A DNA stretch of 64,000 nucleotides, taken from Candidatus Saccharimonadota bacterium. Its GTDB lineage: Bacteria; Patescibacteriota; Saccharimonadia; Saccharimonadales; UBA4665. The notes beneath the pieces are model-generated. The model worked only from the letters and a program-made list of their open reading frames with translations, was not told where the DNA came from and ran no database searches. Of this stretch, positions 55,960 to 59,148 are shown piece after piece. Positions within the stretch are counted from its first letter, which is position 1, and each line of letters opens with the position of its first letter. A program made the position numbers and the translations under genes. The DNA lies in the NCBI GenBank assembly GCA_018062785.1, contig JAGORO010000002.1, positions 1-64,000 of the forward strand, in the 5' to 3' direction.

Positions 55960-56994
55960 TTATACCAGCTTCGCCTGCCCGTCATCATGCTTCGGTGAAT
56001 CTCGCCTTAGGTGCCTGTACGCTTTCGGGAGCACTCGACGACCTCGAGGTGTTCGCTCGATAAACCCAAGTTGGAGCAGATACGGCTCGTAAAAATCTTC
56101 GATTGTCGTCGCTTCATCCCCAGTCAGTGCCGCAATCGTCATGAGCCCTACCGGCCGATCTCCATACGTGTCGATGATGCTACTCAACAAGTTCCTATCG
56201 GCCGGATCGAGGCCAAGCTCATCGATCTCCAGCAGTTCTAACGCACTATGCGTCACAGCCGTATCGATGATACCATCGCCATTTACATCCGCGTAATCTC
56301 GAACTCGCTTGAGTAAACGGTTGGCGATCCGTGGTGTCAAGCGTGCACGCGTAGCCAATGAACTCGCCGAATTTTCATCAATTTTGGCTTCTAGTATGGC
56401 CGCCGACCGACGAATAATCGCCGCAATTTCTTCTGGAGTATAAAATTCCAGTCGGTAAATATGCCCGAATCTATCACGCAGTGGTGCGGCCAAACTACCC
56501 GTCCGCGTCGTTGCTCCAATCACAGTAAACTTGGGTAGATCAAGCCGCACACTACGTGCAGCCGGCCCCTTACCAATTACAATGTCTAGTTTGTAATCCT
56601 CCATGGCACTATACAAAATCTCTTCGACAGCGCGGCTCAGGCGATGAATCTCATCAATAAACAGAATGTCACCATCGGCGAGGTTTGTGAGTATACTTGC
56701 CAAATCACCAGCCCGCTCTATGGCCGGTCCGGAAGTGATTCGGATGTTTTTGCCCATTTCGTTGGCGATAACCGTTGCCATGGTTGTCTTGCCTAGTCCC
56801 GGCGGACCATACAAAAGCACATGATCAATAGGCTCGCTGCGTTTTTTGGCTGCATCAATAGCAAGCTGCAAATTTTTCTTGAGCCGCTCCTGGCCAATGT
56901 ACTCCCCAAAGCTTTGCGGCCGCAGCGTAACCTCAATGACCTGCTCTTCGCTATCATCATCCGGACTCGTATCGACAATTCGCTCTATAGCCAT
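55960..56994 (-). CDS. ruvB: Holliday junction helicase RuvB
   Basis: A 344-residue AAA+ motor of branch migration. The order is typical: [22 protein letters not shown], Walker [12 protein letters not shown], Walker [11 protein letters not shown], sensor 1 [10 protein letters not shown], arginine finger region APLRDRFG, and the C-terminal winged helix with [24 protein letters not shown]. The length is normal. RuvA and RuvC are encoded within 4 kb on the same strand. Confidence 0.97.
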
Positions 56995-57014: not shown

Positions 57015-57556
57015 TTACAGTTTTCGTATGCCCTCTTCATGTGGGATTCCTAAGTCTTTTGCGTGCTGTATGGCCGTTACGGCCCCAATCCCAACGGCGA
57101 GCAGCCCGGTAAACTTTGTGGCTTTTTGGTTGCCCGTGGCTGCAACTACTGCAAAGAGTGCGGAGCTAAGATTTGCAGCACGTTGCCAATTTTGCCTTTT
57201 GGTTACCTCGCCTGTACGCAGTAGGTGCGTTGCATTCATCGCCCCGACGATACCTGCCCGCGCCGATAATGCGAGGATATATCGTATCGTTTGCGGATAT
57301 GATTTTGCAATTTGGTTCATAAGACAAAACTGCGATGCATGATCAATAATGCCGTCGGCTACTCTTCGTACGGAAGTCTCTTCGCCCCCCCCCCTATATG
57401 GCGCATAATCATACCATCAGCTACGTCTGCGGCTATAAACATACTCATGGGTAGCAGTATAGATTCTTGTTTTTTAACACGCTCGGCCATCTCCATAGCC
57501 AACAGATATCTGGGCGTAGTGATGGCTAGCCCAAGTAACTCATGTTCATAGCTCAT
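57015..57556 (-). pseudogene. CDP-alcohol phosphatidyltransferase-like gene, out of frame at a poly-G tract
   Basis: Two frames join into one sensible protein of about 180 residues if a G10 tract (57385-57394 on the minus strand) has 11 or 8 G residues. The first part starts MSYEHELLGL at 57556 and runs to DVADGMIMRHIGGG; the second continues GEETSVRRVADGIIDHA into the 101-residue frame that ends at 57015. The joined sequence resembles the CDP-alcohol phosphatidyltransferase motif D-x2-DG-x2-xR ... D-x3-D, in a divergent form, with about four membrane helices. As sequenced the gene stops soon after the tract. This can be a phase-variable OFF state, a true pseudogene or a sequencing error. Confidence 0.6.
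57385..57394. repeat. Homopolymer C10/G10 tract inside a coding region
   Basis: Ten C residues on the plus strand, ten G on the coding strand. A change to 11 or 8 restores one frame across 57015-57556. Such tracts are typical contingency sites and also typical sites of sequencing error. Confidence 0.9.
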
Positions 57557-57672
57557 AGCTCATAGCTCATAGCTCATAGCTCATAGCTCATAGCTCATAG
57601 CTCATAGCTCATAGCTCATAGCTCATAGCTCATAGCTCATAGCTCATAGCTCATAGCTCATAGCTCATAGCT
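57547..57672. repeat. Tandem heptamer array, 18 copies of CATAGCT
   Basis: A perfect array of 18 units of seven bases, at the 5' end of the CDP-alcohol phosphatidyltransferase-like gene. On the coding strand every unit has an ATG (ATGAGCT), and the proposed start codon lies at the array edge. Copy-number changes would alter promoter spacing and reading frame. Confidence 0.95.
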
Positions 57673-57738
57673 GTGAGTGTATCGTGCGGTGAATTTTTGT
57701 GCAAGCACAAGCAGCATGCTATATGTTGTCGTAGCGCC

Positions 57739-58572
57739 CTAGGGCACGAGGGTGGGGTCCCAACAGGTTCGAAGGTCGCGATTTAGCGTTGCGAGTTTCT
57801 GCATGTCTTCATTATCTAATTCGAAGTTAAAGAGTTCTATGTTCTCTTTGATTCGCTCTGGCGTGACAGACTTTGGCAAAACTACAAGGCCCTTCTGCAC
57901 GCACCAACGCAGCATAATCTGCGCGTATGATTTCTTGTGCTTTACCGCAATATCCGCCACTACTGGATCATCCATAGCCTTGCCATGCGCCAATGGGCTA
58001 TACGCTTCCAGCACAATTCCCTCTTCCCAGCAGTATTCCTGTAGTTCCGGCTGCTGTAAAAATACATGCATCTCCACCTGGTTTACGGCAGGCATAACGC
58101 TAGCATACGACTTCATTTCTTCGAGGTGTTTGATGGTGTAGTTACTTACACCGATCGATTTGGCCTTACCTGAATATTTCGCTTCTTCGAGTGCCCTCCA
58201 GGAACTTTTGCGAAGTCTCGTTACCGGAAAATGCAGTAGGAGTAAATCGATATAATCTGTCTGCAAATCTTGAAGCGACCTATCAATACTTTTGGCTGTC
58301 CTTTTTGCTCCAAAATTTGAAAGTTTTATCTTGGTTGTGATAAATAACTCTTCTCGGCTTAGCCCCATTTGCTTCCAGGCATCTCCAAGTAAGCCTTCGT
58401 TTTGATAAAACTGCGCACTATCAAAATGTCTATACCCCGCACGCCATGCCGCCTCAAAAGCTTGTCGAAACCGTGTATCATCCGTAACTTGCCACAACCC
58501 CAACCCCACCTGCGGGATCTCATTCCCATCGTTCATTTTTAAGCTATGCGATACTGCGTCCGTACTCTTCAT
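57739..58572 (-). CDS. Aldo/keto reductase
   Basis: A 277-residue NADPH-dependent oxidoreductase of the AKR family. The motifs are GLGLWQVTDDTRFRQAFEAAWRAGYRHFDSAQFYQNEGLLGDA (catalytic Asp and Tyr), ITTKIKLSN (Lys), LLLLHFPV (His), VNQVEMH and LPKSVTPERIKENIELFNFEL. The tetrad is complete. The substrate is not deducible. It lies four bases behind ruvA and seems to be in the same transcript. Confidence 0.94.
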   Translation of the reverse strand: MKSTDAVSHSLKMNDGNEIPQVGLGLWQVTDDTRFRQAFEAAWRAGYRHFDSAQFYQNEGLLGDAWKQMGLSREELFITTKIKLSNFGAKRTAKSIDRSLQDLQTDYIDLLLLHFPVTRLRKSSWRALEEAKYSGKAKSIGVSNYTIKHLEEMKSYASVMPAVNQVEMHVFLQQPELQEYCWEEGIVLEAYSPLAHGKAMDDPVVADIAVKHKKSYAQIMLRWCVQKGLVVLPKSVTPERIKENIELFNFELDNEDMQKLATLNRDLRTCWDPTLVP

Positions 58573-58575
58573 TAA

Positions 58576-59148
58576 CTAGCCTTTTAGTGCTTTGGTTATA
58601 CGGTCTTCAAGAGGTAAAGTAGGGTCGATAGTGGCGAGTGCTTTTGCCGCATCGGCGGCAGTGTAGCCAAGGGCCATCAGTGCTTCGACGGCATCATCAC
58701 CCGTGTTTACGCCCGGACGCAACACCACGTCTTCGGCACTCATACTCGAGACCAAGCCGACTTTGTCTCGCAATTCAACTACAATTTGCTCGGCGGCACG
58801 CTTGCCGACGCCCTTGGCACTTTGCAGCATCTTGACGTCGCCACTCGCAATGGCGCCGCGAACAGCCGCAGCAGGACCAATGTCGAGCACAGCCATGGCC
58901 ACCTTGGGCCCAACGTTTTTGACTCCCAAAAGCTGCTCAAACAAGTGCTTTGTATCTGGCGCAGAGAATCCGAATAAGTCGTAGCTTTGCTCGCGAATAT
59001 GCTCGTAGATATATAGCTTGGCCTCTTTGCCGTCAACTAGCTGGCCATAGTCTTCGGCCGATACACTGACTCCATAGCCAATACCGCCGACATCCAGAAC
59101 GACACCCTGTAGTGACTTCTCTACCACTCCACGCAAACTTACAATCAT
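58576..59148 (-). CDS. ruvA: Holliday junction binding protein RuvA
   Basis: A 190-residue protein that binds four-way junctions and recruits RuvB. Domain I is the OB fold (MIVSLRGVVEKSLQGVVLDVGGIGYGVSVSAED), domain II has the helix-hairpin-helix motifs (LLGVKNVGPKVAMAVLD and LQSAKGVGKRAAEQIVVELRDKVG), and domain III is the short C-terminal UBA-like part (AVEALMALGYTAADAAKALATI). A TATACT box sits six bases before the ATG, so the mRNA is probably leaderless. Confidence 0.97.
   Translation of the reverse strand: MIVSLRGVVEKSLQGVVLDVGGIGYGVSVSAEDYGQLVDGKEAKLYIYEHIREQSYDLFGFSAPDTKHLFEQLLGVKNVGPKVAMAVLDIGPAAAVRGAIASGDVKMLQSAKGVGKRAAEQIVVELRDKVGLVSSMSAEDVVLRPGVNTGDDAVEALMALGYTAADAAKALATIDPTLPLEDRITKALKG

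Follow-up and report, generated by a model that had tools for sequence, protein, structure and literature searches.

The window analysed here (the whole stretch of DNA, 64,000 nt long, from an ultra-small Saccharibacteria-type genome with 862,455 bases in 22 contigs) contains what is probably a contingency, or phase-variable, locus for an accessory CDP-alcohol phosphatidyltransferase, in the OFF state in the assembly. Two repeats occur within this one 0.66-kb locus: a run of ten G residues at which the gene is split between two frames, and a perfect heptamer array at its 5′ end. The sequence-only reading had already placed both repeats and the gene together, and the shared locus stands; the extents have been redrawn (Table 1), with the array now ending in the start region of the gene.

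The encoded enzyme would be a small integral membrane protein that furnishes a CDP-lipid with an alcohol head group, and a membrane lipid may be what is switched. Replication slippage in the G tract would gain or lose single Gs, the full enzyme being made only from run lengths of 2 modulo 3; the assembled 10-G allele would be OFF, ending just past helix 2 and ahead of the catalytic aspartates of helix 3. Extra glycines in the loop between these two helices may be tolerable, so that ON alleles of various lengths could all function. The array, changing in 7-bp steps, could tune the amount of product without setting the frame, whether by sequestration of the start codon in a long AGCU hairpin, by its effect on spacing from the upstream gene, or by initiation at multiple AUGs. 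We infer that the tract varies between cells and that switching is selected, and likewise what the array does, which substrate is used and how the cell benefits.

Table 1. Features of the locus, its neighbours and related repeats (positions are those of the window unless a locus is named)
Feature	Position	Strand	Basis or remark
Split CDP-alcohol phosphatidyltransferase-like gene	57015..57556	-	ORF reading and alignment with relatives
First-frame part of split gene	57359-57556	-	65 aa
Second-frame part of split gene, past the G tract	open down to stop 57015-57017	-	
Start codon of split gene, most likely	57554..57556	-	within last array units; N-terminus of about the length of the relatives'
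G10 tract	57385..57394	-	codons of the loop joining both halves of the CDP-AP motif; frame break here
Perfect heptamer array, 18.1 x GAGCTAT (TCATAGC on +)	57546..57672	-	TRF
Candidate 19-codon leader ORF (MLLVLAQKFTARYTHSYEL)	57658..57717	-	enters array, stop at ATGA overlap; putative function
Aldo/keto reductase-like gene, upstream neighbour	57739..58572	-	neighbour kept in many relatives
ruvB, downstream neighbour	55960..56994	-	
ruvA	58576..59148	-	
Glycosyltransferase gene with 4.9-copy heptamer array	L163 10456-11670	-	contig C11
G7 run of the G275 member	L127 about 1794-1800	reverse strand of locus	
G6 run of the G230 member	L122 about 1939-1944	reverse strand of locus	

A putative accessory membrane enzyme

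Searched by itself, the window protein has no useful Pfam or NCBIfam match (weak TLC and EccD matches were dismissed as noise), and it was therefore placed in a family through its relatives. A single-sequence scan of genome contigs found no relative of it, and an alignment scan of public MAGs found nothing beyond two members already known; the family was found by a profile grown stepwise over several hundred related genomes. It has only a handful of members (in G000, G066, G024, G322, G311, G202, G441, G227, G446, G275, and G230). The G024 member is truncated, G481 has a distant partial match only, and most of the related genomes do not have the gene. Same-genus relatives are among those without it, so its loss is tolerated.

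The resemblance to CDP-alcohol phosphatidyltransferases (CDP-AP enzymes) proposed in the sequence-only reading is borne out by these relatives. Among the seven intact members, five exceed the gathering score of PF01066 (22.3–38.1 bits against 22); one other scores 20.4, and the G227 member has no match. A model of the G066 member, built from a 4-row alignment (pLDDT 82, pTM 0.71), has the six helices of the CDP-AP fold, and its top matches among solved structures are all CDP-AP enzymes (probability 1.00, though with E of just 0.01–0.04; TM 0.60–0.68 by query length). In the motif D-x2-D-G-x2-A-R-x8-G-x3-D-x3-D, the four aspartates and the first G are invariant, and the spacing is kept in most members; most members have another residue in place of the A of AR, and the second G is R in all of them. 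The family has six helices and the D-x2-D-G...D-x3-D motif in common with PgsA1 (6h53), phosphatidylglycerol phosphate synthase (7drj), and AF IPCT-DIPPS (4mnd), but differs in these two residues and has just 14–16% identity to solved structures. On the Pfam matches and the modeled fold of its relatives, the gene is a putative rare accessory CDP-alcohol phosphatidyltransferase. The same genome has two other PF01066 genes with stronger matches, making the split gene an extra.

The ruvC-ruvA-ruvB neighbourhood is a frequent location for genes of this family. Between ruvB and either ruvA or the aldo/keto reductase gene, content is variable (loci L079–L118, family f1): the ruvB-side interval holds unrelated ORFs in G003, G002, and G073, and in G001 a large surface-type protein is encoded ahead of ruvB. 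At the site corresponding to that of the split gene, G003, the closest relative, has an unrelated 175-aa ORF (ruvB synteny survey). The interval before ruvB looks like an insertion-tolerant site.

The G tract and recurrent frame breaks

From the ATG at 57556 the first frame ends after 65 aa, in agreement with the earlier claim that the gene is out of frame at G10; the accompanying claim, that 8 or 11 Gs would open the frame, also proved right (179 and 180 aa, respectively). Run lengths of 5 or 2 keep the frame open as well, the general rule being 2 modulo 3, and the G run thus has one property expected of SSR contingency loci, an effect of repeat number on frame or expression. A second, tract length far beyond chance, is found in both the G run and the heptamer array. 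A whole-genome pattern search identified the G10 tract as the sole G/C run of at least 8 in the 862-kb genome, where geometric extrapolation from shorter runs gives an expectation of about 0.035 runs of at least 10 per genome. That it shares one locus with the strongest array sampled is unlikely to be due to chance.

The tract aligns exactly to the loop that connects helix 2 (D-x2-D-G) with helix 3 (D-x3-D); in the G066 model this loop is residues 66–69, a gap between helices. With 11 Gs, the window protein would have three additional residues in this loop, which are absent from other aligned members. The 10-G product, ending before helix 3, would be inactive.

A third expected property, constraint beyond the tract, is found as well. 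Identity to the intact relatives is 0.44–0.49 before the tract vs. 0.48–0.51 after it, and third codon positions are the most divergent on both sides; the post-tract part therefore evolved as coding sequence. By this pattern, its translation was kept up through most of its evolution; the large distances speak to long-term history only, and are compatible with recent loss.

Two distant relatives also have frame-broken copies. The G275 member, located between ruvA and ruvB, loses its frame within the VGG-N motif of helix 4, at a G7 run, and the G230 member close to the last helix, at a G6 run; in each, one added G restores the full-length frame, and there is no further lesion. Three of the ten alignable members are thus broken, each exactly at its own longest G run (G10, G7, and G6) and at three different sites, while the longest G runs of the seven intact members are of 3–5. 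The coincidence of breaks with G runs of at least 6 (3/3 vs. 0/7) has a Fisher p of about 0.008, calculated from few cases and with kinship ignored. The broken copies show no grouping on the tree, which is mostly unresolved, with mostly weak branches. As read from these sequences, the recurrence of G-run breaks in relatives speaks for recurrent poly-G phase variation rather than ordinary decay. Every tract-bearing copy seen is OFF, with no ON allele among them (one genome per species).

The sequence-only reading had also proposed that relatives with the gene but with neither repeat would count against switching, and taken to the letter there are such relatives, the seven with intact copies. 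We do not accept this as a refutation, because slippage tracts of this kind are often lineage-specific and because two other relatives have breaks at their own G runs.

Homopolymer slippage is also the first step in the breaking of dispensable genes, and the main rival to a contingency locus is early decay with unstable repeats: a dispensable accessory gene, broken again and again, and irreversibly, by slippage in G runs, with the array an unselected by-product of relaxed constraint. The family's distribution is what decay would produce (the gene is missing from most related genomes, truncated in G024, and broken in three others), as is the OFF state of every tract-bearing copy. Decay does not, however, predict a single lesion per broken copy or undiminished conservation past the tract; it would require several slippage steps to reach G10 where the relatives have no comparable G run, and it leaves the coincidence with the strongest sampled tandem array unexplained. 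We consider it unlikely, but still deserving of real weight.

Two other explanations would leave the gene functional as it stands. The full enzyme might be made anyway, through a -1 shift of the ribosome on G GGG GGG or through slippage of RNA polymerase on the run, in which case OFF would mean low rather than zero expression. Each of the three broken copies would regain its frame by a -1 shift at its G run, and low-level frameshifting in the decoding of G runs has been described (reviewed in PMC5009743); the sites differ among the three copies, however, unlike a conserved recoding site, and a shared direction in all three has a chance probability of about 1/4. Such recoding seems improbable here. 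Slightly more doubtful again is that the run length is an assembly miscall, the gene being intact with another run length and only the array being real. Each of the three broken copies lacks just one G for an open frame, as under-called homopolymers would, but two of these runs are of 6 and 7, which short reads call reliably. Furthermore, other genes of the genus keep their frame across internal G8 runs, and RuvB is free of internal stops in every one of the 87 genomes with a match, so that gross assembly error is not general; the window itself is 95% ORF-covered, with no other obviously split gene noticed. Runs of at least 9 G are found in 17 of 92 family genomes, those inspected being mostly intergenic or in frame. 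G005 has a G13 run (L068 1501–1513, contig C10) whose nearby ORF looks unlike a gene; this stretch of the MAG may be a contaminant or rich in repeats.

The heptamer array

The count of 18 perfect heptamer copies given in the sequence-only reading was reproduced by TRF (18.1 copies of TCATAGC, 100% match, score 254), which found no other array scoring >50 in the window. The wider repeat survey consisted of whole-genome pattern searches and a 299-kb sample of the genome. Three or more tandem units of this heptamer are found nowhere else in the genome; in the 299-kb sample, which covers 35% of the genome, the runner-up among short-unit arrays has 4.9 copies, and the best perfect heptamer array in the relatives has 8.1 (745 kb sampled).

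In the same genome, 4.9 perfect, stop-free heptamer copies make up part of the first codons of a glycosyltransferase gene (MKSPTSNVQRPTSKQPKVAIVHDWL...; L163 11558–11591, contig C11). The copies of this gene in five genus relatives have different, repeat-free N-termini. The layout is that of a classical frame switch, in the ON frame, and the gene is a further candidate for a contingency locus. G003, the closest relative, has CTTAACT in 8.1 perfect copies where a UmuD-like gene meets a UmuC-like one (L177 15488–15544). Heptamers therefore recur as repeats in the genus, as these two arrays show. There are also 4.1 copies of TGGATGT in an open frame resembling tsaD (L157 7663–7691, contig C5 of the same genome), and a related GTTGGAT triplet in a tilS-like gene of G006 (L193).

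Each unit of the window array contains an ATGA and the palindrome AGCT. Sixteen of its 18 ATGs open a 5-codon ORF (MSYEL*), one is the gene start, and the last opens a 7-codon ORF. The ATG of the gene is the second-last, fixed at the 3′ end of the array, and each of those upstream of it opens MSYEL* only. Tandem GAGCTAT repeats have a TGA every 21 nt in all three frames. The earlier suggestion that heptamer number might switch the translation frame has therefore been dropped: with all frames closed and the start at the fixed 3′ end, copy number is unable to shift the frame of the gene. To judge from its sequence, the array would be able to act only via initiation, spacing, transcription, or RNA structure.

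Scans for sigma-70 promoters and terminators around the array found no excess over shuffled sequences, and no convincing sigma-70 promoter adjoining it. The array RNA is predicted to fold as a single long hairpin whose rungs are AGCU and whose internal loops hold AUG (-61.5 kcal/mol over 178 nt, for the native sequence only), so that copy number could plausibly alter start-codon access or spacing.

A more elaborate possibility is a two-layer switch, in which the G tract would permit completion of the enzyme and array parity would permit arrival of the ribosome. The array would then be a ladder of overlapping five-codon ORFs, the stop of each overlapping the ATG two units on (ATGA); ribosomes coming from the candidate leader ORF would hop 14 nt per step, and would reach the ATG of the gene at one copy-number parity only. 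By sequence arithmetic, the leader's ORF chain at the present copy number ends on 57549, not 57556, so that in this proposal both layers would be OFF. We think it very improbable that the locus works in this way.

Significance and comparison with known systems

Saccharibacteria-type epibionts are thought to be without membrane lipid synthesis and dependent on a bacterial host (PMC10939385). Among the open-access papers searched, none connected Saccharibacteria or other cells of the candidate phyla radiation with phase variation of a lipid gene through repeats. If the split gene is indeed a randomly switched head-group enzyme, this would suggest host contact, phage, or host defence as forces selecting variable membranes. 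With G-run breaks in three lineages of one rare family, the idea of switching is directly testable from existing read sets.

For the G tract, the Helicobacter pylori pldA gene provides a parallel: it too encodes a lipid-active membrane enzyme that is turned ON and OFF when a homopolymer tract in its coding sequence slips (PMC3490997). It differs in that its product is an outer membrane phospholipase A, its tract is conserved across strains, and most clinical isolates are ON; variation has been shown among isolates of H. pylori (PMC3490997), while the window locus is known from one assembly.

For the array, one parallel is with the Haemophilus influenzae hmw1A and hmw2A genes, which likewise have long 7-bp arrays (13–38 copies) just upstream; these act on expression level, not frame (PMC2651432). 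They are in adhesin promoters, however, with the array about 70–105 bp upstream (PMC2651432), whereas the window array runs into the start codon, has an ATG and a TGA in each unit, and is accompanied by a second repeat in the gene. The TAACTGA arrays of marine Beggiatoaceae are also found just upstream of start codons and have stops in their forward frames, and a post-transcriptional action has been suggested for them (PMC4679880). There, one unit occurs at many loci (PMC4679880); the tandem unit in the window, by contrast, is unique in its genome and partly self-complementary (AGCT).
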